A stretch of 64,000 bases of DNA from positions 62,001 through 126,000 of the forward strand of contig NZ_NBDP01000007.1 of assembly GCF_004123845.1 (NCBI RefSeq), in the 5' to 3' direction. The stretch comes from Allobosea sp. Tri-44 (lineage in GTDB: Bacteria; Pseudomonadota; Alphaproteobacteria; Rhizobiales; Beijerinckiaceae). Position 1 is the first letter of the stretch; every line of letters starts with the position of its first letter. Below are positions 12,963-45,208 of this stretch, piece after piece. Under the pieces are notes generated by a model, which was not told the DNA's origin, did no database searches, and saw only the letters and a program-made list of their open reading frames with translations. Made by a program: the position numbers and the translations under genes.

Positions 12963-13037
12963 GCTGCGGTAGCTCAGTGGTAGAGCACTCCATTGGTAAT
13001 GGAGAGGTCGAGAGTTCAATCCTCTCTCGCAGCACCA
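12963..13037 (+). tRNA. tRNA-Thr (anticodon GGT), CCA encoded
   Basis: A complete cloverleaf: acceptor GCTGCGG pairing with TCGCAGC, a D arm with GGTAG, anticodon stem CTCCA/TGGAG around loop TTGGTAA (anticodon GGT, threonine), and T arm GAGAG/CTCTC around TTCAATC. Discriminator A and an encoded CCA follow. The 3' end is also the core of a 28-base direct repeat with 45181-45208, so this gene appears to be the integration target of the downstream island. Confidence 0.97.
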
Positions 13038-13040
13038 GCC
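13013..13040. repeat. attL-like direct repeat at the 3' end of tRNA-Thr
   Basis: 28 bases covering part of the T arm, the 3' acceptor strand, CCA and three bases beyond. They are identical to 45181-45208. The left copy sits in an intact tRNA gene, as expected for tyrosine-recombinase integration that restores the tRNA. Confidence 0.85.
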
Positions 13041-13350
13041 ATTCTCCGGATAACCGGCGATTTTCCAAAAGCGCGGAAAACCCGCGCTTTCGCCGTCACT
13101 TACGAGTCTCGCGACCGATAGAACGCGATGACCAGCCAGCGGTCACGCGCCAAAAAGTCAGCAAGCCTGGCGCCTGTCTCTGACGCGCAATTTCGGATTT
13201 TCCGAGTATTCCAGCGCCCGTGGGCCAGAGACGGGTTAGCTTTGGAAAGAGACGGGTTCGCAACTCGGCTATGGCCGCCCATGGCCCATTCCCGAAACCC
13301 AGAATGTCCGCTTATGCGTAGGTCAACAAGTGAAGAGCCCTGCGAGGCGA

Positions 13351-13368
13351 AGCCCGCAAAGACGGGCT
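13351..13368 (-). terminator. Possible terminator after the first autotransporter
   Basis: A 6-bp stem AGCCCG/CGGGCT with a 6-base loop lies about 58 bases past the minus-strand autotransporter stop. No strong T tract is present. The surrounding 13041-13425 stretch holds no gene I can support. Confidence 0.35.
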
Positions 13369-13425
13369 ATTCGCTCTGCACCGGGACGACGCCAACCAGC
13401 AGCGGTCCAAACGCTGTCATTTGTC

Positions 13426-16400
13426 TCAGAAGCTGACCCTGAGCTGCGCGGTTCCGCCGATGCGGCGGGTGTTCCCGGAGAGTTCCGAGTCGACGCGCAT
13501 GCCGAGGCTGACGCTCTGGCTCAGCCCGATGTCGGCTCCCGCTGCGAGCAGGGCGGCGTTGCGGTCCGGTCTGGCGCCGATTACCCCGAAGCTCGCGCCG
13601 GGCAGGCCGTTGAGCGAAGCGGTGAGGTCGGCGTCGCGCTGGTAATAATGCGCCCAGGCGGCGCGCACGAAGCCGGTGACGGGAGTAGCGCCCGCCAGCA
13701 GGTTGGCGTCGAGCTGCAGCCCGAGCTCGCTGCGGCTGGTGATGTCGGAACGCCCCGCCAGCGTCAGCGTGCCGGCGGCGGCACCGGTCCCGTCGCGCTC
13801 GATTGCGACGGGGCTGCTCGCGCGCACCGCCTGAAAAGCGGCGAGCGGCGAGAGTGTCAGGCCGCCCCAGCTTACCACCGGCAGGCTTGCCTCAATCCGG
13901 CCGGACCACACCTCGGTCGCATAGGAGGCGGTCACGCCGGTACGGGCGAGCGCGGGAATCACGCGGCTGGTGTTGGTGTCGAGCCTGGCATAGCCGAGTG
14001 CGGCGGCAAGGTTGACGGTGCCCAGCGTGGTGCGGCCATAGAGGCCAGCCTGGAAGACATCGGCCTCGGCCTTGCCGAGACCGCCCGAGAGCGAGGCGCG
14101 CGATTGGCCGCCCGCGACCGCGATGCCCGCGACCGTGTTGGAGCCGAGCCGGACGTCGACGCCGACCGCGAGATGAGCATCGGAGAGGTTGCGGTTCGCC
14201 GAGCCCACGGCCCGGTCGCCGTCATTGCGTCCAGTCGAGCTGAAGGTCGCGCCCCAAAGCGAGAAACGCGCCGGATCCAAGGTCGGGCGACCCGGCCCGT
14301 CCCTGCTTCGAGGGCAGATCGGCCGTGAAGCCGGCAGCGCCGCCGGGGCCGTTCTGAGAACCGGCGAGGCGGCCTGCCCCCGAGCCGTCGAGCATGGTGC
14401 CGAGGAACTGGCCAGCCGCGCTGTTGGCCATGGCGGGCACGGCGGTATGGACCTCGCCCGAGAGCTGGTTCACGGCGACGGGGATCGCCGCCGCCGGCAG
14501 GTTGTAGATCCCAAAAAGCCCTGAGGGGTCTGCGCCATTGGCAACCGCGGCATCGATGGCCGAGGCGACCGCAAGAGCGTTAGCCGGGCGGCCGACGCCA
14601 AGTCGTGGCGATGGAGCGGACGGGACGATCGGCGGGACGACCGGGTCGACGATCGGCGCCAACGGTTTCGGCGTCAGCGTCAGCTGGACGTCGTTGCCGT
14701 TGTAGCTCACCGCAGTGGTGACCCCGTCGCCGAACGAGCCGGTGGTGTCGACCAGGCCGAAGCGCGTGCCGCCGAGCCCGCCCGCTGTCGAGAGCAGCGT
14801 GTAGGGCGCGGAGAAGCTGTAGGCACCGCCTAGAGGCACGATCCGCAGCGTGCCGGCCAGCGCGGCCGTGCCGGTGACAGCTGTCCGATCGGAGACCGCG
14901 CCCTGGACCTCCGCGACATAGGTCGAGCCGGTGCCCATCACGAGGTTGCCGTTGACCGTCAGCGTGCCGGGTGAGTTGCCCGGCGAGAGCGTGCCGTTCA
15001 CGGTGAGCGAAGGCAGGGCGCCGGTTCCGCCGACCGCGCCACCGGCCGCGACCGTCATACCCGAGGAGGCTGCGATCGAGCCGTTGACCACGAGCGCGCC
15101 GGCATCGACGAACGTGGCGCCCGTATAGCTGCTGATGCCGGTCAGAGTCGTCGTGCCCGTGCCGGCTTGGCGCAATGCGCCGGAACCCGAGACAGCGCCC
15201 CCGAAGCTCACAGCGTCTGACCGGTTGAAGACCAGCGTCCCGCCATTGGCGACGTCACCAGTGATCGAGCCGCTTGTCCCGCCGGCGCCGATCTGCAGCG
15301 TCCCGCCCAGGATCGTCGTGCCGCCGGTATAGCTGTTGGCTCCGGCAAGGATCTGCGTGCCCGCGCCGGTCTTGGCCAGCGCCAGGGTCGCTCCGGTCTC
15401 GCCGGGGGCGTCGTCGGCAATGCTCCCGACAAAACTTGCCGTGCCTGATGAGACCGCGAGGGTCAAGGATCCGGCCTGGGTATCATGGCCGTTGACGACC
15501 AGCCCGCTCCCGGCGAGCGAGCGAACGGTCACAGCGTGGCCATGCGCCATGAGGGCTGCGTTCGGCGCCAGCGTGACGTCGGAGTTCGGGGAGAATGCGC
15601 CGTTGGCCGCTGCTGCCAGCGTCACGCCGCCACCAATCGCGGTCGGGCCGCTGTAGCTGTTGCTGCCGCCGAGATCGACCCGGCCGATGTCGGTGCTGGA
15701 GTTGAGCAGCGAGAGCACTCCGCCGGCCCCGTTGCCGTCCGTGATGTTGCCGGTCAACGTGACGACCTGACCGTTCGCGTCGATGGCACCACCGCTCGTG
15801 TCGACCGCAATGGCAGTGGCGAATGTGTTGATGAAACCCGTTCCCGCCTGGAACGTGCCGCCGGCTAGCGTCAGCGGGCCGACGCCGATCGCGGATGCGC
15901 TGCCGGCCCGCAGCGTGCCGCCGCCGATCGTGGTGCCTCCGGAATAGGTGTTGGTGCCTGTGAGGATCAAAGTGCCGGCACCAACCTTGGTCAGGCTGGT
16001 GCCGACGCCATCGACGATGGCCGAGCCGATCGAAACGGTGACGCCGGATGCCGTGTTGATCGTTCCGCCGCCGGTGACACCGAGTCCGAGCGAACCTCCG
16101 GTCAGCACGTACCCGTCGCTGTTGAACTGCAGCGTGTCGAAGCTTTGTGTGCCAGGGACGGTGACCGCGCCAGCGGTGCCCTGGAAGACCCCCACCGAAC
16201 CGAGCCAGGGCGCATTGATCCCGGCGTGGCCGGGCGCGCCGGTCCAGTTGGCGTTGCCGCCATTCCAAATCCCGGAGCCGCCATCGACGGTGCCGTTGCC
16301 GGTGAGGTCTGTGCCGTCCCAGAACTGCATGGTCTGGCCCGCGCCTACCACAGCGAGATTGACCTGGTTCGGCACACCGGACGGAGCGTTGTAGATCGTG

Positions 16401-19219
16401 CCGACAGCCCCGGCGACCGAGGGGGCCGCCAATGCCAACGTATCGAAGCTGCCGCTTATCGTGCCGCCGCCGGTGACTTCGAACAGACGATAATAGCCCG
16501 CCGAAGCGACGTTGGCTGTCAGTGTCCCGCCGAGCGTCAGGTTGCCGGCCGCGCCGCTGCCGTTGACGATGATACGGTCGTTGTCTGGGCCGCCGACCAC
16601 GCCGTAGCTATTCAGCTCGAACACGGTATTCGAGCCGCTGCTCAGCGTCAGTGACCCGACCGTCAGCGTGCCCGGCGAGTTGCCGGCCGACAGCGTGCCG
16701 CCGGAGGCGACCGTCACCGCCCCGACGATCACGCCCGAGCCCGACAGCGTCGCGCCGCTGGCAACGCCGACCGCCGAGGAGGCGAGCGAGCCGTTCACGC
16801 GCAGCTCGCCGCCATTGACCTGCGTCGCGCCGGTGTAAGTGTTAGCGCCACTGAGCGACCAGGTGCCTGCATTGATCTTCGTCAGCCCGCCCGTCCCCGT
16901 GGCGATCACACCGGAAACCGTACCGGTTCCCGGGCCGGCGAGGGTCAGGTTTTGTCCCGAGCCGGTAATGCCGCCGGAGATCGCCAATACACCCGGAAGG
17001 TTCAAGAAGCCGGCATTGATCTGGCTGTCCGCGGCGAGCGTGATGTCTCCGCCATAGCTGCTCGTGCCGCCGTTCGCGAGAAGCGCGCCGAAGCCACCCA
17101 TGCCAGTGCCTGAGAGCGTGAGCGCCTCCCCGCCGATGTTGACGCCGCTGCCGAGGCTCAGGGACGCGCCCGATGCCACCACCGTTCCGCTCGCCGTCGC
17201 GCCGAGACCGAGACTGTTCGTCACGAACAGGCTGCCCGAAACCACAGTCGTGAGGCCGGAATAGGTGTTGGCGCCTGCGAGCGTCCATAGGCTTCCAACC
17301 TTCGTGATTGAGCCGGAACCGATGGCGATCACGCCACTGATCGTGCCGCTATTGTTGCTAGAGCCGCCAAGCGTCAGATCAGTGTTGAATCCAGAAATGC
17401 CGCCCGAAAGATTTAGCGAGCTCGTGGTCTGGACAGTGATGCTGCTGGCTGCCGCAAGGGTGATTGCCCCCTGGAAGGTGTTGACGCCGGAATTCAAGCT
17501 GGTGAGAGCGCCGGCTCCCAACGCACCAGTCCCCGAAAGCGTAAGCGCCTCGGCGCCGACGGTTATGCCGCCGGTCAAGGCGAGCGTCGCACCCGATGCG
17601 ACCGTCGTTCCGCCTGCCCCCCCGCCGAGGCCACTGCCGTTAGAGACGGTGAGCGTGCCCGCCGAAACCGTTGTCACACCCGTGTAGGTGTTCGCACCGG
17701 ACAAAGTCAGGCCGTCCGCACCGAGTTTGGTAAGTGAGCCTGCGCCGGTGACGACGTTACCTAAAGTAGCTGCGGTGGATTGATCGAATTGAACGCCCGT
17801 ACCGGCGGTGGTGAGATGAACATCGCCCCTCATGCTCCAGCCGGGCAGGAGCGTTACTGTAATGATGCCATCCATCAACGTGATGGCGTTCGCGCGCGCG
17901 CTGGCACCGCCATCAAGGCCGCCGGAGATGTCGCCTGCGCTGATGATCGTGAGGTTCGATCCTACTATGCCTGCTCCACCATTTCCCGCTGGTCCATCCA
18001 CGCCAGAGCCGTCGGAGGTATTGGGAGCAGCGCCTCCAGCCCCTCCGTTGCCTCCGGTGAGTGCGGTGCCTGCGGATATGTTGATGACCACGTTGCTCGC
18101 GAGCAATCCTGCGCCACCCGCGCCGCCTGCCCCACCATCGGTCCGATAGGAAACCGCTGTCATAGCCCCAGTTGCGCCGCCGTCTCCTCCTTTCCCACCG
18201 GACACACTTGCGCCGACCGTGATCGAAGATGCTCCTGACCCCAAGAACGAGATGCCAGCGCCGCCGGTGCCACCGTTTCCACCCTTACCGTAAGTCCCCT
18301 GGAGATCCCAAAGGAACCAACCTTTACCGCCGGCGCCGGCATCCCCTCCTCGCACCGGTGCCGAAATTGTGCCTGTGATCGAGTTACCGGTGAAAGCGAG
18401 GCCAATTCCACCGGATCCGCCGCCACCTCCCGAGATATTATTCGATACTAGAGAGCCGCCGTTGCCACCATTGCCGCCTGTGGCAGAAGCGCCGAGGGCA
18501 CCTAAATTGCCGTCGCCCGTAACGACTAACCCCCAACCGGCCGCTCCGCCACCTCCGCCATTAAACAGTGCCCTCCAGGGAGGGCCGCCGAGCCCGCCTG
18601 CGCCACCGGTAATGTTGGCGCCTGCAAGGACTTGGCGCACACCGCCATGCGCGCCGCCGCCACCGCCACCGCCCGAAAGAGAGTTCGAATCGCCGGTTCC
18701 GCCAGCCGCGCCAGGGAACGCGCCGCCTGCGCCTTCTCCGAAGCCACCCGGATGAAATCCTCCGCGCCCGCCAATGGCGCCAGCTCCGCCGCCTCCCCCA
18801 GAGTCACGAGTAGCCGAGCCGTCGCCGCCAGCCGATCCGGGGCCAGTGGCACTGTCGATGCCTCCCTGTATTCCGCCGAATCCGGCGCCACCCTCGGCGA
18901 ACGCAGGCCCTATTAAACCCACCAAGTTGCTGGCGACTGCCGTGGTCGCTATCAGGGCCAACATGCCCCACCAGTTTCGGCGCTGGCTTTCAAGGCTTTC
19001 AGCGGCGCTCTGAATCAAGTCGATGCGACGCGGCAGTTCGCATACCGATCCGGCTGAAGCGGTCGCTGCGAGCCGCCAAGTGCGATGCATGCAGCGGCGA
19101 ATATATGCCGACTCTGCATCAAGAGACGTGGCAAAGCCCGCGGTGACTAATGGAAGACGCAGATCATCCAAGCGCACTTTGACGAGCGGGTGGCAGCGCC
19201 GACCAGTGAAGTTTGGCAT
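13426..19219 (-). pseudogene. Large autotransporter adhesin, frameshifted between passenger and beta-barrel
   Basis: A type V secreted surface protein. A long N-terminus ends in a signal segment (NWWGMLALIATTAVA, then LVGLIGPAFA|EG). A very Gly-rich passenger region follows, then at least seven autotransporter-associated beta-strand repeats of the form LSGANTYTGxTTVxxGTLxV. The C-terminal beta-barrel (SLWGATFSSTGRNDG to the final QLRVSF) is in another frame, 13426-14280. Comparison with the intact paralogue at 25724 shows one extra G in a G run near 14311 as the cause. I favour the ATG at 19219 (GGACAGG upstream, MPNFTGRR). If the shift is real the passenger cannot be displayed. Confidence 0.85.
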
Positions 19220-19431
19220 GTAAATCCTGTCCGGCATAGGAATCATGAAGGGGCGGCGGGGTAGAAGAGATATCCGGACCAGCGCCGCATGAGCCTCCTC
19301 AAATCGAGGTGGAACGCTTGAGGTCGGTCGATATACACAGACCACGCCGGTCGCTCCGGCGCGGCGGCTAGAAAGGAAAAAAGGCCGCCGCGACCTCAAA
19401 GGCTGACGGCGGCCCATATCCAGTTTGCCGC

Positions 19432-20772
19432 TCAGGCGAAGATCAGCTGATCACCGAGCTGGGCCGCGGTGAAGTTGGTGACGATGATGCCGCCAGAGCC
19501 GCCAAGCGCGGTTGTGCTGATGACGACGCTGCTGCCGCTATTGGTGAAGGTGAGCTGCCCGGCTCCGATGCCCTCGAAACGCAAATAGTCGAAATTGTTG
19601 GCGCTCTCGCCGAAGCCGTCGACGACGTCGAAGATCCCGGCCTCGAAATCCGCGGCAAGCGTCCAATACTGGTCATTGCCGGCGCCACCAGCGGAATAAT
19701 CCTTGCCGGCCCCGCCAATGAGCTGGTCAGAGCCCTCGCCGCCGAAGAGCTGGTCGGCACCGCCCTGGCCATAGAGCCAGTCATTACCGAGCTGGCCGTA
19801 CAGGTAATTGATGTTGCTGTCGCCGATCAGGTAGTCCTGCTGGGCCGATCCCGTCACGGCCTCGACGCCTAGCAGCGTATCGCCCTGGGCATCGCCGCCG
19901 ACGCCCATGCCGACATCGAGCCGCACCACGACGCCATTGATTGAGCCGTCATAGCGCGCGAAGTCGAAGCCGGACCCGCCGTCGAGCCAGTCGGCGCCGG
20001 CGCCGCCGTCGAGCTGGTCGCTATCGGCCGCGCCATCGAGATAATCCGTGCCTGCTCCGCCGAGCAGCGTGTCGGTGCCGGCGCCGCCCAGGAGCGTGTC
20101 ATTATCCGCACCGCCATCGAGCATGTCGCTGCCGCGCCCGCCATCGAGATAGTCGTTGCCGGCATTGCCGACGATGGTGTCGTCGCCATCGCCGCCATCA
20201 AGCACATCCGCGCCGGTGTCGGCATCGCCGATTTCCCCGAAAGTGCTGGCCTTGCTGCTCACTTCCGGCAGGTCCGAGATGCCGTTGTTGGTGTAGTTGA
20301 CCGTCTTGGCGTAGCCAGCCGGCACTGAAAACGTTCCGCCGCCGTAGATCGTGTCGTTGCCGGCGCCGCCGAAAATAGTGTCCGCCCCGGTCCCGCCTTG
20401 TAGAAAATCGTCTCCCAGCCCCCCGAAAATGGTATCATCGCCACCTTCGCCATTCACGTAGTCGAAGCCCGATTGACCAAATATCAGATCGTCTCCAATC
20501 CCGCCTAGAATGACGTCTGCCTCAACGGTCAAGCTTCCAACGATATCACCGTCACGTCCACTTGCAGAATTATCGCCGTAGACAACATCATTGCCGCCGA
20601 AAGCAATAATATAATCCTCTTGTGACCCGCCTTCGATATAGTCGATTTTCGCACTTGCAAAAATATAGTCATCGCCATCAAAGGCAAAGATATCCGTTGC
20701 TAAATTAGGGACGTCAAAAATTTCCGATCGTCCTGCAACGCCTTGATAGATTCTCTTGTTTGAAAACGACAT
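19432..20772 (-). CDS. RTX-type calcium-binding repeat protein
   Basis: 446 residues carrying many GGxGxDxUx nonapeptides (GGEGDDTIFGGLGDDFLQGGT style) in two blocks, about residues 45-150 and 190-375. These fold into Ca2+-binding beta-rolls outside the cell. There is no N-terminal signal peptide; a hydrophobic, acidic-poor C-terminus ending QLGDQLIFA suits type I secretion, but no ABC exporter is in the window. The gene starts 14 bases after the P450 stop, so the two form an operon, with the first autotransporter gene downstream. The ATG at 20772 follows AAGGATGG. The 5' end is AT-richer than its surroundings. Confidence 0.88.
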   Translation of the reverse strand: MSFSNKRIYQGVAGRSEIFDVPNLATDIFAFDGDDYIFASAKIDYIEGGSQEDYIIAFGGNDVVYGDNSASGRDGDIVGSLTVEADVILGGIGDDLIFGQSGFDYVNGEGGDDTIFGGLGDDFLQGGTGADTIFGGAGNDTIYGGGTFSVPAGYAKTVNYTNNGISDLPEVSSKASTFGEIGDADTGADVLDGGDGDDTIVGNAGNDYLDGGRGSDMLDGGADNDTLLGGAGTDTLLGGAGTDYLDGAADSDQLDGGAGADWLDGGSGFDFARYDGSINGVVVRLDVGMGVGGDAQGDTLLGVEAVTGSAQQDYLIGDSNINYLYGQLGNDWLYGQGGADQLFGGEGSDQLIGGAGKDYSAGGAGNDQYWTLAADFEAGIFDVVDGFGESANNFDYLRFEGIGAGQLTFTNSGSSVVISTTALGGSGGIIVTNFTAAQLGDQLIFA

Positions 20773-20786
20773 TAAACCATCCTTAT

Positions 20787-22442
20787 TTAGAATTTAAATG
20801 CCGTCGCGACATTACAACTTTCCGTTACGGGATCGCCTCGTTTCGCTAGGACTTTTGATCGGCCAGTAGTGACCGCTTTGGGTGGGATATCAGGGGGCGT
20901 TGAGAGCGGGACCAATCGTACCGGCACGGATGATGGCGTCACCGAAACCGTCGCAGAGAAGGTCACGGCGACGTCGTGCACTGGCACCAGTTCAAACTCC
21001 TGGATCACGGTACTCAGGAAGCGCGTTAACAGGTATTCGGCCTGGTGGCGCCCAATGCAGTGTCGCGCTCCCGCGCCGAACGGCATGGCGCTTGCGATTG
21101 ACGCGGCGGGTCGCTCACCGCCTGGTCCCGCAGCGAAACGGCAGGGATTGAATAGCCGCGCGTCCGCGAAGAATGCCTCGTTCAGGCCTACGGCGGTCTT
21201 CATCCACATCACATTCGTCTTGGCCGGGATGGTGATCCCCTCCACCTCCATCGAACGAGTCTCGGATACCTTCGAGCTGAACGGAACCGGCGGAAACAGG
21301 CGCATCGTTTCGTGGACGATGTTCAGCACGAAGTGATCCCCAGCGCTCTTGCCTGCGTCTCGTGCCTCGAGCACGCGGGCTCGGACCTCGTCCTGTACGT
21401 GCGGGTTTCGGGAAAGCAGGTAGAGCGCCTGGGCCATGGTGTAGCTCATGGCGTCGGTTCCTCCGGCAACGAGCGAGATCAACTCCTCGACGCATTCGTG
21501 GTGGCTCCAGGTCGCCGTGCTGCCTGGATCAAGCTTCAGCCTGACAAGTCTTTCCAGCACATCCGGCGGCTCGTCCCCTCCACCGCTCAAACGACTTTGC
21601 AGCCGTCGCTCCAGAACCGCCGCGAGATGTGCGAAGAGGTAGCGATATGCGGCTCTTGCCCGCCTTGCTCTGATCGGGAACAGCCATCGCACGAAGAAGG
21701 GATGAAACGCCCGGAAGCTGATCGCTTCCTCAAGCGCGCCGATCGCAGCCAGATATACGCCGAGGTCCGACCGCTGCTCCCACTCGTCTCCGCAGAGGAA
21801 TGAACCCAGGCTATTCGCGCTCCAGTGATGGAGGTCGGCCTTCAGGCTGCCATGCCGGGTCTGCCCGGATCGCCAGGTTCGGAGATAAAGCGCCGAGACT
21901 TCCTCCATACGGCCAGCACCTTGCTGCACGGCTTTTGGTGTAAACTGCGGGTTCATCTGTTGCCGATGGGCGGTATGCCTCTCGCCCCTCTTCAAGCCCA
22001 TCAAGCTTCGAGGCAGCACGGTGCTATCGGCGACCCGGTTTGAATCCATGCCCTTATGGCCAAGGTCCTTCGGCGCGACCGAAAGCGAGACAAACGGCGT
22101 GTTGCCCCACGCCATGTGGACCTTCACGACCGGGCCGTACGCCCGATGCAGCTCCACCAGCGCCCGATCACGAGCGCCATGATCGTGGAGGAGGAGAAAC
22201 TTAAGGCTCCCGACGAAGAACGACGGCTTCGGGCCGGGAATGTGGGCATATCGTCGAAACTCGAGGCATCGGAACGCCACACCCAGCGCCAAGAGGCCGA
22301 CCGGGGCCAGCGCCGCGAGGAGCCATGCTTCGGGGGAAGACAGCATCCGCGCAAACGCCAAGGTCGCCACGACAAGCACGATGGCGATGATGAAACCATA
22401 GAGGCATTCGTACAGTTTCAGGAGTGCCGCGGTGCTCTTCAT
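20787..22442 (-). CDS. Cytochrome P450 with N-terminal membrane anchor
   Basis: A 551-residue haem mono-oxygenase. The N-terminus has two hydrophobic segments (about residues 12-33 and 38-55), unusual for a bacterial P450 and resembling eukaryotic or CYP4-like membrane-bound forms. The I-helix AGGTDAM is near residue 328, the ExxR element HETMRLFPP near 379, and the haem ligand loop PFGAGARHCIG with Cys near 460. I chose the ATG at 22442 (GGAGA upstream); the frame is open further but that DNA is the promoter leader shared with the gene at 29402. No ferredoxin or reductase partner lies nearby. The substrate is unknown, perhaps a lipid or fatty acid. Confidence 0.9.
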   Translation of the reverse strand: MKSTAALLKLYECLYGFIIAIVLVVATLAFARMLSSPEAWLLAALAPVGLLALGVAFRCLEFRRYAHIPGPKPSFFVGSLKFLLLHDHGARDRALVELHRAYGPVVKVHMAWGNTPFVSLSVAPKDLGHKGMDSNRVADSTVLPRSLMGLKRGERHTAHRQQMNPQFTPKAVQQGAGRMEEVSALYLRTWRSGQTRHGSLKADLHHWSANSLGSFLCGDEWEQRSDLGVYLAAIGALEEAISFRAFHPFFVRWLFPIRARRARAAYRYLFAHLAAVLERRLQSRLSGGGDEPPDVLERLVRLKLDPGSTATWSHHECVEELISLVAGGTDAMSYTMAQALYLLSRNPHVQDEVRARVLEARDAGKSAGDHFVLNIVHETMRLFPPVPFSSKVSETRSMEVEGITIPAKTNVMWMKTAVGLNEAFFADARLFNPCRFAAGPGGERPAASIASAMPFGAGARHCIGRHQAEYLLTRFLSTVIQEFELVPVHDVAVTFSATVSVTPSSVPVRLVPLSTPPDIPPKAVTTGRSKVLAKRGDPVTESCNVATAFKF

Positions 22443-22562
22443 GACGAGGTCTCCGGCAGGGCGACACGACCCTTGCGCGGAACTACGCAGAGCGTGGCGG
22501 CACCCGTCCTGAAGCCCGAACGAAAAACATCCGAAATTAACCCGAAATTCAACGGGACCAGG
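22421..22562 (-). promoter_or_regulatory. Leader/promoter of the P450 gene, duplicated at 29381-29520, with 11-bp direct repeats
   Basis: About 140 bases, including the first codons of the P450 gene, closely match 29381-29520 upstream of a small secreted-protein gene. Within it CCGAAATT occurs at 22531-22538 and 22542-22549, 11 bases apart, the spacing at which OmpR/CadC-type winged-helix proteins bind as tandem dimers. The CadC-like regulator gene at 22758-24113 is immediately upstream. The rest of the 22443-22757 gap holds no gene I can support. Confidence 0.6.
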
Positions 22563-22757
22563 CTTGTCCTGGATAGTGTCTAGTCGCTGTCGCCGCCGTC
22601 CGGTGGCTCGATGCCCGCTTCTGCAGCCGCCCATAACAGGTGGATCGCCGCACAGTGATGGCGACACTCGAAGGCCGAGAGGTCTCGATGATGCAGGGCT
22701 GGAATCAGGCCGACGCCCGGACGCAAGCTGCAGACGGCCGCCCTGACAAAGGCTGCC

Positions 22758-24113: not shown

Positions 24114-24195
24114 GCCCACCAAAGCAATCGAGGCCTGCCCGTTTTCGAGCGAAGTGGATACCGATTCGCGTGAAGAAAGCGAGTCAAAACAAGGG

Positions 24196-34110: not shown

Positions 34111-34124
34111 CGCTCGCTCTCCGA

Positions 34125-34352
34125 TCAACCAGAGCGCGGCCCGCTCGGATCGCGATCGCGACCATGGCCGTTGCCGGGCGTCGGGTCGCCATCCCCCGAC
34201 AGCACGACCGGGTTGGCGCTTACCAACCCTCCAAGGTTCGGCTTGGCCTGCGAAGGTGCAAATTGCCTCTCCGCGTTCTGCTTCGCCGGCTGGCGAGATT
34301 TTACGTCCGCTTCCTGCTCAGGGCTCAGTGAATTGCCGTGTCCATCACGCAT
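34125..34352 (-). CDS. Hypothetical protein, 75 aa, Gly/Pro-rich
   Basis: A small hydrophilic, probably disordered protein (SLSPEQEADVKSRQPAKQNA and a Gly/Asp/Pro-rich end). AAAGGAG directly precedes the ATG. It sits 14 bases before the cupin gene and 19 after the membrane-protein gene, all on the minus strand. No family is recognised. Confidence 0.5.
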   Translation of the reverse strand: MRDGHGNSLSPEQEADVKSRQPAKQNAERQFAPSQAKPNLGGLVSANPVVLSGDGDPTPGNGHGRDRDPSGPRSG

Positions 34353-34371
34353 GAGCTCCTTTGATTGTCGT

Positions 34372-35253: not shown

Positions 35254-35262
35254 AGCAGACTC

Positions 35263-35337
35263 CTATCGCAGGCCAATGAAGGAGAGGATGGCCATGACTA
35301 CGACCACGAGGCCGACCAGATAGATGATGCTGTCCAT
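35263..35337 (-). CDS. 24-residue single-span membrane peptide
   Basis: Encodes MDSIIYLVGLVVVVMAILSF, then IGLR. It is a single hydrophobic helix with a short positive C-terminus. GGGAGAAAAGC precedes the ATG. The stop is 9 bases before the start of the larger membrane protein, which suggests a two-subunit complex or regulatory peptide. Very similar small peptides recur beside this type of membrane protein in related bacteria, as far as I recall. Confidence 0.7.
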   Translation of the reverse strand: MDSIIYLVGLVVVVMAILSFIGLR

Positions 35338-35595
35338 TGCTTTTCTCCCGGGCGCGCTTGGCGGGCCGTCGGGAGAACGATCTCAAGCGTCAGCCGGTTC
35401 CGTAGCTGCATGCGCTTAGTGCCTTGATCGAACACTCACCGCTCGTCGCGACACGACTGGCGACCTTGCTTCCGCTGTCACTCATAGAACATAATCGGAA
35501 CAAACTTGCCGGCGGAGCAAATCATCGCCGTCATTCGACATTGCCGCATCCAGCTGTCCAGTGCTCCGGTTCAACTCCAATAGGTCGAATTACGC

Positions 35596-37656
35596 ATGAA
35601 CGCGCACGTCTATCTCGACAGCCTGAATTCGGCGCAGCAGCGGGCCGTGTCGTATGGCGACGGAGCGGCGCCGGCTCCGCCTGTGCTGATCATTGCAGGA
35701 GCCGGCTCGGGCAAGACTAACACGCTGGCACACCGCGTCGCCCATCTGCTCGTCTGCGGTGCTGATCCGCGGCGCATCCTGCTGATGACCTTCTCGCGCC
35801 GCGCCGCCTCCGAGATGATCCGCCGCGTCGAGCGCATCGCCCACAAGGTGATGGGCGACGGCGCCGGCGTCGCTGTCGATGCGCTGAACTGGGCCGGCAC
35901 CTTCCACGGCGTCGGTGCGCGGCTCCTGCGCGACCTTGCCGAGCAGATCGGGCTCGACCCCGCCTTCACGATCCATGATCGCGAGGATGCCGCGGATTTG
36001 ATGAACCTGGTCCGGCACGAACTCGGCTTCTCGAAGACCGAGGCGCGCTTTCCGACCAAGGGAACGTGCCTGTCGATCTATTCGCGCTGCGTGAACGCCG
36101 AGCAGCCGATCGAGGATGTTCTGCGGCTGTCCTATCCCTGGTGCATCGCCTGGGCGCAGGAGTTGAAGCAGCTCTTCGCGGCTTATGTGGAGGCGAAGCA
36201 GCAGCAGAACGTGCTCGATTACGACGACCTGTTGCTCTACTGGGCGCAGGCGATGTGCGACGCCGATCTCGCTGCCGATGTCGGCACGAGCTTCGACCAC
36301 ATCATGGTCGACGAGTACCAGGACACCAACCGGCTGCAATCCTCGATCCTGCTCGCCCTCAAGCCGGATGGCCGGGGGCTAACCGTCGTCGGCGACGACG
36401 CGCAGTCGATTTATTCCTTCCGCGCCGCAACAGTGCGCAACATTCTCGATTTCCCGTTGGCGTTCTCGCCACCCGCGGAGATCATCACGCTCGATCAGAA
36501 CTACCGCTCGACGCAAGCCATCCTCGCCGCTGCCAATGCGGTGATCGACCTTGCCGCCGAGCGCTTCACCAAGAACCTCTGGACCGATCGTGCCGCCGGC
36601 GCGGCGCCAGAACTGGTCAACGTCCGCGACGAAGCCGATCAGGCCCGCTTTATCGCGGAGACAGTGCTGGCAAACCGCGAGGCCGGCGCAACGCTGAAGC
36701 AGCAGGCCGTGCTCTTTCGCGCCTCACACCATAGTGGCTCGCTCGAAATCGAATTGACCCGTCGGAACATCCCGTTCGTGAAGTTCGGCGGGCTGAAGTT
36801 CCTCGACGCCGCGCACGTCAAGGACCTGCTCGCGCTGCTGCGCTTCGTCGAGAATCCGCGCGATCGTGTCTCGGCCTTTCGCGTGATGCAGCTCCTGCCT
36901 GGCGTCGGCCCAACCTCGGCGCAACGCATTATCGAGCATCTGGCGCAGTCACCGGAAGGAGCAGACGCCCTGCGCGACGCCCCTGCCCCCGCCCGCGCGG
37001 GAGCCGACTGGGCATCATTCGTCGAGGCGATAGAGGAGCTGCGCTCCGGTAGATCAGGCTGGCCAGCCGAGATCGAGCGGGCCCGCCTTTGGTACGAGCC
37101 GCATCTGGAGCGCATCCACGAGGACGCGACGACGCGCCAGGCCGACCTCCTGCAGCTCGAGCAGATCGCCGGCGGCTATCCCTCGCGCGCGCGATTCCTG
37201 ACCGAGCTGACGCTCGACCCGCCGGACGCCACCAGCGACCAGGCCGGCGTGCCGCATCTGGACGAGGACTACCTGATCCTTTCGACCATCCATTCGGCCA
37301 AGGGGCAGGAGTGGAAATCGGTCTTCGCCATGAACGTGGTGGATGGGTGCATTCCGATCGACCTTGGCGCCGGCGCCAGGGACGAGATCGAGGAAGAGCG
37401 CCGGTTGCTCTATGTCGCCATGACCAGAGCCAAGGATGATCTGCACTTGATGGTGCCGCAGCGCTTCTTCACGCACGGCCAGTCATCAACCGGTGACAGG
37501 CACGTCTATGCCGCCCGCACGCGCTTCATCCCGAACAACCTGCTGAAGTATTTCGAGCGGCGCGCTTGGCCGCTGGCCGCGCCCGCCGGCGCACGGGCGC
37601 CGTCCGGCGGCCCAAAGGTTGATGTACGCGCTAGGATGCGCGGCATGTGGCGCTGA
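35596..37656 (+). CDS. UvrD/Rep-type ATP-dependent helicase (SF1)
   Basis: A 686-residue 3'-5' DNA helicase. Walker A IIAGAGSGKT lies at about residues 32-42, LMTFSRRAASEM is motif Ia, VDEYQDTN motif II near 238, GDDAQSIYSFR motif III, QNYRST motif IV, STIHSAKGQEW motif V and YVAMTRAK motif VI. All helicase motifs are present, so it is probably active. It is shorter than UvrD in its C-terminal region. It stands alone on the plus strand in the island. The upstream gap 35338-35595 holds a likely promoter only. Confidence 0.93.
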   Translation: MNAHVYLDSLNSAQQRAVSYGDGAAPAPPVLIIAGAGSGKTNTLAHRVAHLLVCGADPRRILLMTFSRRAASEMIRRVERIAHKVMGDGAGVAVDALNWAGTFHGVGARLLRDLAEQIGLDPAFTIHDREDAADLMNLVRHELGFSKTEARFPTKGTCLSIYSRCVNAEQPIEDVLRLSYPWCIAWAQELKQLFAAYVEAKQQQNVLDYDDLLLYWAQAMCDADLAADVGTSFDHIMVDEYQDTNRLQSSILLALKPDGRGLTVVGDDAQSIYSFRAATVRNILDFPLAFSPPAEIITLDQNYRSTQAILAAANAVIDLAAERFTKNLWTDRAAGAAPELVNVRDEADQARFIAETVLANREAGATLKQQAVLFRASHHSGSLEIELTRRNIPFVKFGGLKFLDAAHVKDLLALLRFVENPRDRVSAFRVMQLLPGVGPTSAQRIIEHLAQSPEGADALRDAPAPARAGADWASFVEAIEELRSGRSGWPAEIERARLWYEPHLERIHEDATTRQADLLQLEQIAGGYPSRARFLTELTLDPPDATSDQAGVPHLDEDYLILSTIHSAKGQEWKSVFAMNVVDGCIPIDLGAGARDEIEEERRLLYVAMTRAKDDLHLMVPQRFFTHGQSSTGDRHVYAARTRFIPNNLLKYFERRAWPLAAPAGARAPSGGPKVDVRARMRGMWR

Positions 37657-38691: not shown

Positions 38692-39106
38692 ATGACATGC
38701 GGGGCAGGCGCCACGCTACGCGGCTTCATCGCGCCTTGGGTTCTGGACGGTCCGGTCAACCGTGATGCCTTCGAGACCTATGTCGCCAAGGTGCTCGTGC
38801 CCGAACTCAAGCCCGGCGACGTGGTGGTGATGGACAACCTCTCCAGCCACAAGGGGCCGAAAGTGCGCGAGATGATCGAAGCCGCCGGCGCGGAGCTGCG
38901 CTATCTGCCGCCCTACAGTTCCGACTTCAACCCGATCGAGATGGCCTTCGCCAAGCTCAAGGCCCTGTTGCGCAAGGCTGCGAAACGAACCGTCGACGGC
39001 CTCTGGAGCGCTATCGGCCGCTTCATCGACCTCTTCGAGCCCGATGAATGCCGCAACTACTTCAGCGCCGCAGGATACGATGCAACCCGATCGGAAAACG
39101 CTCTAG
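38692..39106 (+). mobile_element. IS630-family transposase remnant
   Basis: The C-terminal half of a DDE transposase: GFIAPWVLDGP, then VVMDNLSSHKGPKVREMIEA with the second Asp, and YLPPYSSDFNPIEMAFAKLK with the final Glu. The N-terminal helix-turn-helix and first Asp are missing. The probable native stop after GYDAT has changed from TGA to CGA at 39088-39090, so the frame runs on to 39384 through unrelated DNA. A likely right end (GATCGGAAAACGCTCTAG) is at 39089-39106. No left end is seen. Confidence 0.8.
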
Positions 39107-39388
39107 TTTTGCCGCTTCCGGGGATTTTTCCGCACAAGACGGCTCGGCGTGCCGCGGATGCCGCAGCACTTGCGAGGGCGCGTCCTGGAGGCGCCGAGCC
39201 CCGCAGAGGGACCAAGTGTAGGCGGGCCACCACCTTTTCGGGAGCCTTCAGGGCCGGCGGCCGTTATCCTAAAGTAAACCAGAAACGGACGCTGGGGAAC
39301 AACGACCGAAAGCTGCGTCAGCGCCTTGCCGGAATATCTAAGCGTGCTACGAATACGCTCATTGCATTTCAAACTATGTGGTAGGGCC

Positions 39389-41515
39389 ATGACGTTCCTC
39401 GACATCGCCAAGGTCCGCCCAACCGTGACGCAATTCCTGCGCGATCGCATTCCGAACCGTCAGACGCTACTCCTGTCGTGGCCCTTCATTGCGGTCAATA
39501 TTTTCTGGTTCCTCGTCCTGGTCTCCTGGCTGCCCATGATCGCGGGGCTCCAGGATATCCTCGTCCGGCTAAGGCTCGGCACCGCACCGGACGCGTTCAG
39601 CGTGAGGCCCGACACCGTTTCATTCGTCCTCGTCGCTGTTGGCATCCTCGCGACGGGACTGGTGCGGTTCCGCTTCATCCCGGTCCTCTGCGTGCTCCCC
39701 GCGCTCATGGCGGTCCTGTTGGGCATCGGCCCGGCGAACCTCGGGAACTGGAGCGAGCTCGCGCCATGGCTCCTGCCGATCGGACTCGGTCTCGTCGCCC
39801 TGTCGGGGCTGTGTTTCGTGCTCCACGGTCGCATACGAAGCCCGGCTGTCGCCGCCTTCCTCCTGCTGGCAGGCATCGAGGCGCTGTCGGGTATTTTCCC
39901 GCTCGCCCCCTCCCTAGAGGAGGGCGCTTCGGCAATTCCTCCAGTAGCGCCTCAACCCGGCGCGCCCACGCCGGCGGTCTTCCTGACGTTCGGAAGGCTA
40001 TTCCACGCCTACCACCTCTCCGTGCTCGACCTTTTGATCGTCGCGTCGCTCATTGTCCTTGGCCGCTTCCTCGTCCTGGTGTGGAGGCACAACCAGCCCG
40101 GCTGGGTAGGCCTGAGAGAGAATGCCGACCTTCGGACGACCGCGGTCCGGACGGCCTGGCTCTCCGTGCCGTTCTTCGTCCTGATCGGCGTCCTGGGCTG
40201 GTTCTGGAACGGCGTTGGGCGCGAGGCCGAGGCATACGCAATCACCGTGCTGGCCACGCCAGGACCGACCGCCGCCAAGAGCCTTGAGGACGCGCTGCGA
40301 CAGGCGAGCGCCCGCGAGCAGCAGAAGGTCGCGGAGCGCAGCAAGGCCTCTCTCGGGGACGCGACCGCCAAGGCCAAGGACGGCACGACGCAACTCGTCG
40401 GGTCCGTGATGCCTAACGTGCGGGCCTCGTTCCCGGCTTATCTCATGGAGCTCAGGGGCTGTCGCTGGTACGACGTCTTCTGCCATGTCATGAACGGCAT
40501 CAAGTCAGTCGTGAACTCGGTTTACCGGAAAGCCCGCGACGCAGCCCTCAACTCGCTGGAGGCCGAGCTGCGCCGTGCAGACGCCTATGGGAAGGACCAG
40601 CTCGACACAAAGCGCAGGATTGCGACCGAGGCGGTGGATTCCTTCTCTAGGCAAACCACACGCTGGGCCGACACGGCAGTCAGCAAAGCGTTCGAGACGG
40701 CAAGTTGGATCGGGTTGATCCTGTCGATCTACGGCTTCATCGTGGCGGTCAAGACGGTGATGGTGATCATGTCGCGCCTTCTCTATCGCGACACTCCCGA
40801 TAACCCGCTCTTCGCGTCGTTGAAGCCAAATACGAAGAACCCCGTGTCCCACCTGCCCACGGTCGTGGGTAACGAGGCCGTTATTCCGTACCGCCCGCCC
40901 GGCTCGCCCGATACCTATATCGCGCTGCGCTACGAGATCAGGAACGCGGTCGCCAACGTCTCGCTGCCGCAACCCGGCACCGGCATTTTCGGCAGGATGC
41001 TAAGCGGGCGTTATGTCCTCGGCCTGCTACGCACATCCAGCCTGCCCAAAGAAGGGGCCTCCATCGTCGTGAATGCGCCCTCGGAGTTGGTAACCTGGTC
41101 GTTGGCGCCAGGCGAGGAGATCATCTTGCGCTATGACGACCTTGTCGCCTTTTCAAGCACCGTCCGACTCGCCATCGAGATCAACTTCTCGCTCCAGGCC
41201 ACGCTTTTCGGACGGTTTCTCTTCCATAAGGCGATCGGTCCGGGTGACGTGATCATGCAGACGCAAGGAGAGGCTGTGGCGGGCCACGAAAAAGACGCGG
41301 CCGAGTCACGGCGGGCGACATCGCTGAAGGCGTGGGAGTTGCAGGCCGGGTTCCAGATCCAGTCGAACCTCGATTGGCGCGGGGTCTATCTCGCTCCTTA
41401 CAATATTCGCAAGCAAGCACGTTCCTTGCTGATCTACGACAATGGCCCGGAGAATTCGCGCTGGTCCTCGCTGGGCCTGATCAAGGCCGTAAGAACCTTC
41501 CTGCTGCCATTCTAG
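39389..41515 (+). CDS. Large membrane protein with AIM24-like C-terminal domain, undescribed
   Basis: A 708-residue protein I cannot assign to a known family. At least six membrane helices occupy about residues 25-330, with a Pro-rich break near 190. A charged, helical region follows (SLEDALRQASAREQQKVAER; RKARDAALNSLEAELRRADA), then another helix pair near 430-460. The last 230 residues are soluble; SELVTWSLAPGEEIILRYDD and LFGRFLFHKAIGPGDVIMQT resemble the AIM24 beta-fold, tentatively. The ATG at 39389 follows TAGGG. An AlbA_2 gene follows 101 bases later. Third-position GC supports coding along its full length. Confidence 0.7.
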   Translation: MTFLDIAKVRPTVTQFLRDRIPNRQTLLLSWPFIAVNIFWFLVLVSWLPMIAGLQDILVRLRLGTAPDAFSVRPDTVSFVLVAVGILATGLVRFRFIPVLCVLPALMAVLLGIGPANLGNWSELAPWLLPIGLGLVALSGLCFVLHGRIRSPAVAAFLLLAGIEALSGIFPLAPSLEEGASAIPPVAPQPGAPTPAVFLTFGRLFHAYHLSVLDLLIVASLIVLGRFLVLVWRHNQPGWVGLRENADLRTTAVRTAWLSVPFFVLIGVLGWFWNGVGREAEAYAITVLATPGPTAAKSLEDALRQASAREQQKVAERSKASLGDATAKAKDGTTQLVGSVMPNVRASFPAYLMELRGCRWYDVFCHVMNGIKSVVNSVYRKARDAALNSLEAELRRADAYGKDQLDTKRRIATEAVDSFSRQTTRWADTAVSKAFETASWIGLILSIYGFIVAVKTVMVIMSRLLYRDTPDNPLFASLKPNTKNPVSHLPTVVGNEAVIPYRPPGSPDTYIALRYEIRNAVANVSLPQPGTGIFGRMLSGRYVLGLLRTSSLPKEGASIVVNAPSELVTWSLAPGEEIILRYDDLVAFSSTVRLAIEINFSLQATLFGRFLFHKAIGPGDVIMQTQGEAVAGHEKDAAESRRATSLKAWELQAGFQIQSNLDWRGVYLAPYNIRKQARSLLIYDNGPENSRWSSLGLIKAVRTFLLPF

Positions 41516-41616: not shown

Positions 41617-41984
41617 ATGGCGGCATCGGATCTGGCCGAGCTTTTGCCCGAGACCCGGGCCAAGCTGGCCAAGCATCTTGCAGCCTTGGCAAACCATGGC
41701 GGCGGGTTCATCGTCATCGGGGTCGACGACGCCACGCGCGTGCCCACGGGCGCGCCGCCGGCCGGCCTCGCCAAGATCGATCAGGAAGCGGTAGCAGGTA
41801 TCCTGAAGCGCTACCTAAGCCCGCCGTTCCAGATTCAGGTCGAGAGTGCTGAGCAGGACGGCGTTGGGTATCCCGTCGTGGTGGTCCCCCGACGGGGCCG
41901 AAGGGACAACCGGTAGGCGTCAGCCAGGGCAGGATCTACGTCCGCGCCGCCGGGCCACAAAGCATCGAAATCAAGACTCGATAG
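41617..41984 (+). pseudogene. AlbA_2 (Schlafen-like) domain protein, frameshifted
   Basis: The N-terminal part has the AlbA_2 core LANHGGGFIVIGVDDATRVP, found in putative ATP-binding or nucleic-acid-binding proteins. The frame as given stops at 41916. Adding one C in the run of five near 41886-41890 restores a continuous reading VVVPPTGPKGQP, then GVSQGRIYVRAAGPQSIEIK to a stop at 41984, about 122 residues. A stand-alone AlbA_2 domain of this size lacks the usual C-terminal helix-turn-helix region. Confidence 0.65.
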
Positions 41985-42410: not shown

Positions 42411-43016
42411 CGAGGGATTTGGGCCAAGCAGATTGCGGTCATCGACGCCCGCCGCGAGGCCGAGCGCGACGCCACGCGCGTCACCGTGAACGCCCAGGCC
42501 GAGCGCGAGGCCGCCGACAACCTCGCCCAGGCCCTGCGCACGCAGGCCACCGCCGAAGCCGACGCCAACAAGATCAAGGCGAGCGGCGTCATCGAGCTTG
42601 GCGAGGCCGAGGCCAAGCGCGAACGCGCCCTCAACGAGGCCCGCAACGCGCTGTCGCCGCAGATGGTGGATTTCGAGCTCACCAAGCAACGCATCGCGAT
42701 CGTTCCGGCGGCGCTCGAGCAGGCCATGAAGCCGATCGAGAAGATCTCCGACATCAGGATCTTCAGCGCCGGCAACCTGGCTGGCGCGATGGGCAATGGC
42801 GGCTCGCCGGGGCAAGGCGGCCTGAGCCCGATCTCCGATCTCAGCAGCCAGCTGCTCAGCTTCGGCGCACAAAAGCCGATCGTCGACGAGATCCTGGTGC
42901 AAGCCGGCTTCCGCGGCAGCGATCCTGTCGACGCACTCCTGGGTGCGACCCGGACGAAGGATTCAGGTGCGAGGTCTATCGAGGGGAACGGCGACGCCAC
43001 CTTATCCAAGAAATAG
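42411..43016 (+). pseudogene. Flotillin/SPFH protein, C-terminal remnant
   Basis: About 200 codons open from a stop at 42408. They hold the alanine/glutamate-rich coiled-coil and tail of a flotillin-like protein: REAERDATRVTVNAQAEREA, then LNEARNALSPQMVDFELTKQ and AGFRGSDPVDALLG. The N-terminal membrane anchor and SPFH domain are absent, so this is a 5'-truncated copy. A GTG at 42486 could still start a 176-residue product, but I see no reason to expect one. It lies between the DUF6494 gene and the HipA gene. Confidence 0.7.
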
Positions 43017-43218: not shown

Positions 43219-44529
43219 TTACTCGCCTTGGTTTTGGATCCGCTTTGCTCGCGGATCGCGTCTTCGTCCTTCACGCCTATTGGCGAGTTGCCGTTCGATG
43301 ATCTGAGCCGATCTCGCCACCTCGGCCTGCACTCGATCGAGAAGCTCATGCCCGCCAGCGGGCATGGCGACCACGCGATCGCGCGCTTCCTGGGCGTGCT
43401 CCATCACGAGCTTGCAGAGTTCGGCGACACGCTGGAGCGTGTGCGCGGGGTTCAAGCCGACACTGCGCGCCAGGATCTGCCAGTCAGACCCCTGGACTTC
43501 AGCGGCAACGCGGCGCTCGCCAAGGCTCTGAGCCAGATTCATCGTAATCTGCGGGTATATCTTCGCGCAGAGCACGTCGTAGAGCGGAGCGAGGCGAGAG
43601 GAGCCGCCGGCGCCGATCTGGAGGGCGTAGTTCTTGGCGTGCGCGTCGGTGTTGCAGCAGATCACGTTGAAGATCATGCCATCGAGCAGATCGAGACGCG
43701 CTCCGGGGGAGACATGCCGCTCGACGGCCTTGAACAGTTCAATCAGGCCTGGTCCGCTACGGATCTCGCCGCCGCGCCCGGCAGGCGCATATTCGTATTT
43801 GTCCTTGGGGTAGATGCCCAGGGCCTGGGCCAGATCCTCCTGGTGAACGCGCTGGATGCCGGCGGGCGTCTCGATCCGGTCATATCGCTCGACCAGCAGG
43901 TAGCTTCGTCTAAGAGCGCGTCCCGTCGTGACCGTGGCGGCACGCAGGCCAATCAACCCGGCCAGCGTCAGGCAGAAGGCCTCGTTCTGGACACTTGCCT
44001 TCAGCCGTTCGACATCGGGCTTCAGGATATGCGTCGAGGGCGTGCCATCGAGCGGAATCGCGATTCTGCCATCGATGATGAGGACGCCGATCTTTTCCTG
44101 GGCACCGGCCAGCGACATCGAGACCCCGGCCTCGCCGGCGAGCAGCGGCTTCATCGGCAAATCCGAAATGATCCGCTCGAGCTCTTCGTCGGTCTCGACG
44201 ACGTGGAAGCGGTCACCCGCCTCGCGCGGCTGGCCAAAAGCAAGGGCGCCGGCCGTATCGCGTCCGATCCGAGCGAGGAGGCCAATGATGTTCTGGGGCG
44301 CGACCTGGAGGATCTGACCGATCTCCTGCAGATGCGTTTCCGGCAACAGGTTCGCCAGCCATGGCAGGACGATTCTCGCCTCATAAGGCTCCGGGCGCAG
44401 CGGCATCGTCACCGAGATCGGGAAAGCGAATTTACGATCAATCCAGTCAGGATCGTAGGCAAGCGAGACGCCGTGCTCGTTTTCCAGGATACTCGCGACG
44501 CGCAGCTGCTCGAAGAAGATGTCGGTCAT
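43219..44529 (-). CDS. hipA: HipA-type serine/threonine kinase toxin
   Basis: A 436-residue HipA homologue. The N-terminal couple_HipA region (VASILENEHGVSLAYDPDW) is followed by the kinase: a SLAGAQEKIGVLI glycine-containing loop, HILKPD, ERYDR, VHQEDLAQALG, and catalytic CCNTDAHAKNYAL with LAPLYDV. HipA phosphorylates and inactivates a tRNA synthetase (GltX in E. coli), causing growth arrest and persistence; the target here is unknown. It starts 8 bases after the HipB-like antitoxin stop, in the same operon. Confidence 0.92.
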   Translation of the reverse strand: MTDIFFEQLRVASILENEHGVSLAYDPDWIDRKFAFPISVTMPLRPEPYEARIVLPWLANLLPETHLQEIGQILQVAPQNIIGLLARIGRDTAGALAFGQPREAGDRFHVVETDEELERIISDLPMKPLLAGEAGVSMSLAGAQEKIGVLIIDGRIAIPLDGTPSTHILKPDVERLKASVQNEAFCLTLAGLIGLRAATVTTGRALRRSYLLVERYDRIETPAGIQRVHQEDLAQALGIYPKDKYEYAPAGRGGEIRSGPGLIELFKAVERHVSPGARLDLLDGMIFNVICCNTDAHAKNYALQIGAGGSSRLAPLYDVLCAKIYPQITMNLAQSLGERRVAAEVQGSDWQILARSVGLNPAHTLQRVAELCKLVMEHAQEARDRVVAMPAGGHELLDRVQAEVARSAQIIERQLANRREGRRRDPRAKRIQNQGE

Positions 44530-44537
44530 CAGGCCAT

Positions 44538-44807
44538 CTAGAAGCGCGGCAGAGTGGCGAGGGGATCATTGGGATCGTCAAGCCGAGCTGGCGACTCTTG
44601 CTCGGACGGAAGCGAAGCGAGGCGAAGGCCGACTTCGAAGGCGGCTGTCAGGGCATGCCCAAGATGCGTGCCGGATTTTCCGGCCTCGAGATCGATGATC
44701 GTGCGGCGGGTCACGCCGCAGCGGGCGGCGAGCTCGTCCTGGGTGATCCCCGTGGCCTGCCGGTGCCGGCGGACGAGGCGACCGAATTCTTCGGCGGTTC
44801 GGATCAT
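44538..44807 (-). CDS. hipB: HipB-type XRE antitoxin
   Basis: 89 residues with one XRE helix-turn-helix: HRQATGITQDELAARCGVTR, then RTIIDLEAGKSGTHLGHALT. Start chosen at the ATG at 44807 (MIRTAEEFG), the usual HipB N-terminus; the longer reading from 44858 runs through the promoter. It neutralises the kinase encoded 8 bases downstream and represses its own promoter, as other HipB proteins do. The likely operators are at 44840-44934. Confidence 0.9.
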   Translation of the reverse strand: MIRTAEEFGRLVRRHRQATGITQDELAARCGVTRRTIIDLEAGKSGTHLGHALTAAFEVGLRLASLPSEQESPARLDDPNDPLATLPRF

Positions 44808-44839
44808 GGCACTCTGTCCGCAGGGATGGCACAAACCAG

Positions 44840-44934
44840 AATGTGAAAGATACTGCACAATGGCGCGGTGTCAAGCGTATGTGCATTATTCTTCACATTA
44901 GCTAACTCAGCCGAAGATGTGCAGAATTCTGCAC
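44840..44934 (-). promoter_or_regulatory. hipBA promoter with three operator-like palindromes
   Basis: On the minus strand a near-consensus promoter is visible: TTGACA at 44874-44869, a 16-base spacer and TATCTT at 44852-44847. Two 21/22-base sites in opposite orientation, 44840-44861 and 44879-44899, share AATGTGAA, then TGCACA elements. A perfect 16-base palindrome GTGCAGAATTCTGCAC lies further upstream at 44919-44934. The first site overlaps the -10. Paired operators match cooperative HipB binding. Confidence 0.65.
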
Positions 44935-45180
44935 TCTCGCCCTACTGCCGCGCCAGGACGTGGCCGCGCTGTTCCTGTCGGCTCCCTGGTCGCGCAGCCG
45001 CCTTGTACGAACGGGTATAACAGCGGGATTCGCCGACTCAGCCTTTCCTCCGCGGGCGGTTCAGGCTACGAGATTCTTGCTTTTTTCTGACCTTCCACAA
45101 TCCGAGCAAGGGTCATTTCACCGGCCGTCACACCGTTACAAAATATCTCGTAACCTATTGTTTTTATTGAACTGTATGCC

Positions 45181-45208
45181 AGTTCAATCCTCTCTCGCAG
45201 CACCAGCC
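45181..45208. repeat. attR-like direct repeat (tRNA-Thr 3' end)
   Basis: 28 bases identical to 13013-13040. The rest of the tRNA is absent upstream, so this is a fragment marking the right edge of the island. The 44941-45180 stretch between the HipB operators and this site, and 45209-45424 beyond it, hold no gene I can support. Confidence 0.85.

Follow-up and report, generated by a model that had tools for sequence, protein, structure and literature searches.

An island without a detectable integrase at the 3′ end of tRNA-Thr in Allobosea sp. Tri-44

How did a 32-kb block of accessory genes come to lie between two copies of the end of a tRNA-Thr gene, with no integrase found in it? The question is raised by the window analysed here, a 64,000-nucleotide stretch of Allobosea sp. 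Tri-44 that is part of a 600-kb contig (C23) in a draft assembly of 76 contigs, and it was addressed by comparison with 67 Bosea genomes (the own genome and 66 others). With good confidence we take the block to be a composite island, inserted at the 3′ end of tRNA-Thr through site-specific recombination, that seems to have lost its integrase and was probably stacked on an older element. The type of event is well known, and is here seen in good detail.

The first-pass annotation of this DNA had reported an exact 28-base repeat of tRNA-Thr at the two ends of the island, and had proposed that a relative with an empty site should join the sequences lying outside them. Both were borne out. The 28-mer consists of the last 25 bases of the tRNA plus GCC, and is present in exactly two copies in the window (Table 1); no further copy was found in the window allowing up to 3 mismatches, none occurred in 100 shuffles, and no third partial copy was detected in 13061-45160 allowing up to 6 substitutions over 23 nt. 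On the chromosome (contig C1) of the sister strain Bosea sp. Tri-49 (G022), the match to the left flank stops at 3342863 and that to the right flank begins at 3342836 on the same contig, so that the two flank matches overlap by exactly 28 bp. Aligned to the joined flanks of the window, Tri-49 shows a single copy of the repeat without the island, the identity being 90% for the left flank and 92% for the right flank. Since a direct repeat of the tRNA 3′ end is present at both island boundaries and the empty site is present in a close relative, site-specific entry is directly supported; recombination into the 3′ end would have kept the tRNA whole and left a 28-bp core repeat at each end.

The same junction would be given by a deletion between the repeats, if the interior had always been present in the chromosome and Tri-49 had lost it by recombination between the two copies. 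This ancestral origin is very unlikely in view of the distribution of the interior genes. The cytochrome P450 was found elsewhere in the genus on a Tri-49 plasmid (92%) and as a stretch of 59 residues in G014, apart from distant family members (at most 32%), and the 708-amino-acid (aa) protein was matched in G039 only (66% in DNA and 65% in protein), about 235 kb from the tRNA-Thr there. Among the matches listed, none of the 66 other genomes has the island at the tRNA-Thr site. The comparison of base composition inside and outside, proposed in the first-pass annotation, gave a clear difference: the G+C content at third codon positions (GC3) of genes predicted with a simple in-house gene caller is lower inside, with a mean of 0.77 (14 genes) versus 0.86 (24 flank genes; Mann-Whitney p = 8e-6).

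The island is composite, as had been suggested, in that its cargo segments match unlinked places in sequence comparison. One of the matches is the module shared with the second replicon of Tri-49, a plasmid bearing repC. A 5.8-kb piece with an autotransporter (13567-19344) is absent from the corresponding place of that plasmid and is present only in the window. Farther right, segment 29712-32024 is 87% identical to contig C96 of G055, segment 32343-35406 is 79% identical to contig C19 of G065, and segment 35462-38043 is found again on contig C14 of the own genome (90%) and on the Tri-49 plasmid (89%). The description of the interior as partly degraded also holds: autotransporter A is split across two frames, the flotillin, Schlafen-AlbA and DDE transposase genes are represented by fragments, and the start of the P450 gene with its upstream region is duplicated as a 153-nt copy (92%). 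The cargo would have been assembled from several sources, one being the module on the repC-bearing plasmid of the sister strain; the direction and the order of the moves of module and cargo we infer from the matches.

A misjoin of a plasmid contig to the chromosome at the short repeat would also place a plasmid module next to tRNA-Thr, and both the draft state of the assembly, with its 76 contigs, and a repC gene on an 11-kb contig of the own genome are compatible with such an artefact. We consider it quite improbable, as the window lies on a contig of 600 kb, both flanks match the Tri-49 chromosome C1, and the second repeat together with the shared right end is what integration predicts. In addition, the gene that neighbours the module on the Tri-49 plasmid has a 94.6% copy on contig C22 of the own genome, with other genes beside it and the module absent, a comparison that speaks for those stretches of the own genome that were read.

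The first-pass annotation had further stated that the genes outside the island are conserved. Judged from gene matches, wide conservation holds for the left flank only, and the right flank is not a widely conserved backbone. Among the matches listed, the gene in front of the tRNA is that of a phosphoesterase in 57 of the 67 genomes, the own genome included; in G023 the contig stops within the tRNA. Fourteen of the 66 other genomes have the gene cluster of the right flank (at least 75% identity; partial in two genomes), and two of these 14 have it at the tRNA-Thr site, again among the matches listed: directly in Tri-49, and in G038 past a 39.6-kb insertion. What G038 carries between the same flanks is a different element, which has a repeat of 58 bp and an integrase of its own.

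The first gene after the tRNA fell into 51 clusters among the 61 sequences with a called gene. For this clustering 64 sequences were examined, G023 being represented by a copy of the repeat from another contig instead of the tRNA; there was no usable tRNA locus for G019, G045 and G059, which stood outside the set. At least 13 of the 67 genomes (G000, G005, G010, G011, G014, G015, G021, G038, G041, G048, G055, G058 and G063) clearly have a second copy of the repeat on the contig and strand of the tRNA, no more than 100 kb behind it, and at least two (G002 and G034) have a partial one. By these comparisons the tRNA-Thr site is an insertion hot spot also used by relatives. At one locus, L201 (G041:C108:32340-32887), the 28-bp repeat occurs twice with its starts 30 bp apart, and the first copy is the tRNA end.

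Other occupants of the site raise the possibility of a decayed prophage, that is, a phage that integrated at tRNA-Thr and then lost its phage genes. Among the matches listed, G038, G014 and G058 have elements at the tRNA whose repeats measure 54-61 bp and whose right end bears a different type of integrase, the phage-like content of these elements being a reading of predicted protein starts only. The window repeat is of 28 bp, and the repeat copies of G038, G058 and G014 do not share the window right end. When PHROGs was applied to 10 interior proteins, a part of the open reading frames (ORFs), several matches of unknown function and no structural, packaging or lysis family were obtained. The idea that the window retains a piece of the G038-type integrase was rejected, no match to this integrase being obtained there at an E-value of 0.01. 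A prophage origin therefore appears extremely improbable, and we return to an island that entered by site-specific recombination and seems to have lost its integrase.

Which recombinase could have acted? The absence of an integrase noted in the first-pass annotation was upheld: six PF00589 integrase matches exist in the own genome, none of them on contig C23. The interior search for a divergent integrase, also proposed there, was negative for the G038 type and for the type found in G052 (no match in the window at E 0.01), and no remnant of the G052 type was found within 2 kb after either repeat at E 0.05. An ORF at 42308-43201 (minus strand) was considered as an integrase of unknown kind and was rejected, as it lies opposite the flotillin fragment.

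The right end of the island carries a trace of its relatives. With 45085-45208 as query, the 28-bp repeat included, six loci in five other genomes were detected (E 8e-9 to 1e-20), while loci sharing the repeat alone reached about 1e-7 at best. With the repeat left out, the right ends of G055, G021 (twice), G020 and G052 score 40-52, as compared with a maximum of 24 in 500 control pieces; the scores are 10-16 for eight stretches of 85 bp, from five loci, that precede other copies of the repeat or tRNA ends. A further match in G002 is weak (72%, E 2e-4) and was not counted. The motif GTTACA is located 45-46 bp before the repeat in five of the seven right ends. On the integrase side, an arm in which GTTACA is followed by GTAAC, referred to as type A, was found in 7 of 67 sequences, always in the same position behind the tRNA or repeat copy, and an eighth sequence, G009, has GTTACA twice; to the above 64 sequences this set adds contig C5 of G030 and, from the window, its right side and a second copy of its left side.

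In G052, G010, G046 and G048 the tRNA is followed, at a distance of about 90-125 bp, by the start of a tyrosine recombinase carrying a DUF6538 domain; the Pfam domain check was run on three of the DUF6538-type recombinases. The integrase of G052 is intact and starts 94 bp after the tRNA. Only the start of the gene remains behind the tRNA in G056, likewise in G047, whose copy is broken, and behind a repeat copy on contig C5 of G030; faint traces are seen in G021 and G013. In G021 the distance from a tRNA-Thr to the shared right end is 10.4 kb, and this tRNA is followed by the type A arm and by 25 residues of the integrase start, a trace detected at E 0.001. Relatives of the DUF6538-type integrase were found at E 0.001 in 41 of the 67 genomes, and no match was found at that threshold in the own genome. 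Because of the shared right end and its arm motif, the right end probably goes with a DUF6538-type tyrosine recombinase, which would be the most likely enzyme of the integration. Another arm type, with GTGGTACA-like repeats, follows the same tRNA at L186, L189, L190 and L195 (in G063, G011, G048 and G046), and suggests at least one more integrase subgroup at the tRNA-Thr site.

The DNA outside the right end points to an earlier occupant. The bases to the right of the second repeat in the window, and of the single copy in Tri-49, align with the type A arm in a worn form, and no integrase remnant was found in this arm-like DNA (2 kb, E 0.05). Since the DNA past the right repeat resembles an eroded integrase-side arm, the insertion was probably stacked on an earlier element; the site would already have held an eroded element of the same kind, and the islands would have been stacked by accretion. 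The left arm is of another type, type B, lacking the GTTACA/GTAAC pair. In G034 the type B arm is 87.5% identical over 248 bp versus 79% for the adjacent phosphoesterase region, a contrast that hints at transfer of the arm, while G053 shows the opposite direction (82.7% for the arm versus 86% for the phosphoesterase region). As to whether type B could be native to the position behind the tRNA, the identities in G034 and G053 point opposite ways.

Several observations weigh against the sequence of events proposed here. With a left arm (13041-13290) other than type A, the island lacks ends that pair up as the attL and attR of a single integrase. Nor is any boundary between stacked elements marked by a third copy of the repeat. 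The right end of G015, scored with the repeat left out, scores 22, a value that one of the 500 controls reached, making it a doubtful member of the family; GTTACA is absent from the right ends of both G055 and G015, and these two genomes also lack the type A arm beside the tRNA. A close exact GTAAC partner is present in the window right end only, four others having GTAAC at 70-71 bp. Integrase and right end are split between contigs in G052, so that G021 alone shows the pairing on one contig, and there the integrase trace is weak. Excision in the Tri-49 lineage, instead of insertion in Tri-44, is formally possible, and in this draft of 76 contigs the junctions at 13.28 and 29.71 kb are known from the assembly alone.

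Comparable arrangements have been described. A review (PMC5704250) describes the cis-mobilizable element (CIME) and the tandem accretion of integrative and conjugative elements (ICEs) and integrative and mobilizable elements (IMEs). As in that description, the island is bounded by repeats at a tRNA end, integration and transfer genes were not found, and apparent remains of another element adjoin it at the same site. In agreement with the loss of integration genes expected of a CIME, none was found on the contig and no DUF6538-type match in the genome. The right end is common to other elements, and arm-like sequence, with no integrase remnant found there, lies to the right of the second repeat. 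Unlike the CIME as described there, the window has left and right arms of different types, and no active tandem element was found. Because of the mismatched ends the island is not filed as a working CIME, and its mobility is doubtful. Nor does it have the features of an ICE or IME, no integrase having been found and no transfer family in the interior Pfam scans: relaxase and secretion-system families were absent among the interior ORFs scanned, no search aimed at relaxases being made. An integrase gene of its own, usual and not required for a tRNA-targeted island, was likewise not found.

The Dehalococcoides ssrA islands, as presented in PMC3146451, are similar in that many islands occupy one RNA gene across strains, with repeats within 100 kb and some islands without an integration module; they differ in using a serine recombinase and a tmRNA gene, in contrast to tRNA-Thr and a putative DUF6538-type tyrosine recombinase in the present case. 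In Sinorhizobium meliloti (PMC11476347), alphaproteobacterial tRNA genes are similarly reused by islands and prophages, but all 88 att-bearing islands and prophages are stated there to carry an integrase gene, and none was found in the present island. No paper title on this tRNA-Thr site was found in the Bosea/Hyphomicrobiales island literature, among the matches listed, and a literature search on DUF6538 gave no paper.

The best reading of the locus is an integrase-less, CIME-like remnant at a tRNA-Thr hot spot, a testable case of an island that seemingly outlived its integrase. One genus supplies the empty site, the family of right ends, a candidate integrase and, on a plasmid, a copy of roughly half the cargo, and DUF6538, a Pfam domain of unknown function, would be tied to the tRNA-Thr site and to arm sequences. 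The HipBA-like pair adjoins the right end of the island and may keep it from loss. A wider picture, speculative and on balance unlikely, is that of tRNA-Thr in Bosea as an assembly yard: DUF6538 integrases would import elements and then be lost repeatedly, while arms, 28-bp cores and cargo stay; modules would pass between plasmid and chromosome via the site, be held there by pairs such as HipBA, and be movable later by an integrase of the same specificity.

Table 1. Coordinates of the island features in the window
Feature	Position	Strand	Remark
Intact tRNA-Thr (GGT), integration target	12963..13037	+	Rfam tRNA 71.1 bits
Left copy of 28-bp direct repeat	13013..13040	+	tRNA 3′ end plus GCC
Left arm, type B, about 250 bp	13041..13290		After tRNA also in G034, G053, G065; weaker in G007, G026
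Module	13282..29713		Collinear, 89-92%, with 156614-167285 of 454,531-bp Tri-49 plasmid
Autotransporter A, beta-barrel part	13426..14280	-	Frame differs from passenger
Autotransporter A, passenger part (PATR repeats)	14222..19417	-	
RTX-type calcium-binding repeat protein	19432..20772	-	Tri-49 'calcium-binding protein'
Cytochrome P450	20787..22442	-	92% on Tri-49 plasmid
CadC-like winged-helix regulator	22758..24113	-	
AraC-family regulator	24578..25621	+	
Autotransporter B, uninterrupted frame	25724..28720	-	Tri-49 homologue
Small ORF (29076-29402) and copy of P450 start/upstream region (29372-29524, 92%)	29076..29524	-	Tri-49 hypothetical protein
dCache-PAS-GGDEF diguanylate cyclase	30045..31967	-	
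Alpha/beta hydrolase, cupin-like protein (best Pfam score below cut-off), 293-aa membrane-like protein	32343..35406		
UvrD-like helicase	35596..37656	+	
DDE_3 transposase fragment	38692..39384	+	
708-aa protein of unknown role	39389..41515	+	Sole other genus match at E 0.001: G039 (65%)
Schlafen AlbA_2 fragment	41617..41916	+	
Flotillin gene, 3′ part	42486..43016	+	
HipA-like toxin kinase	43219..44529	-	
HipB-like helix-turn-helix protein, putative antitoxin	44538..44858	-	
Island-side right end	45122..45180	+	Common to five loci of four other genomes; holds GTTACA and GTAAC
Right copy of 28-bp direct repeat	45181..45208	+	Exact match to left copy
Apparent worn copy of type A integrase-side arm	45206..45290	+	Common to empty site of Tri-49 (G022)

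As to the cargo, the two autotransporter genes A and B are related, their barrel ends being 90% identical over 300 nt (internal repetition within 13423-29524). A flotillin homologue adjoins the same type of right end in G055 and G021. The UvrD-like helicase fits the GajB and DRT-helicase models, but Gabija was rejected, as no GajA was found beside it: the adjoining ORFs given to PADLOC match no family among the matches listed, and the gene upstream of the helicase, outside the PADLOC set, encodes the 293-aa membrane-like protein without a Pfam family.

Upstream of the island, a tRNA-Thr remnant extending from the D arm to the anticodon arm (12773-12818; 83% over 46 nt) begins 193 bp upstream of the corresponding part of the intact gene; apart from the window's own locus, a scan of 33 loci gave a close copy of it in G050/CRIB-10 only. 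At the other end of the window, a glycine riboswitch is located at 63622-63722 on the minus strand.

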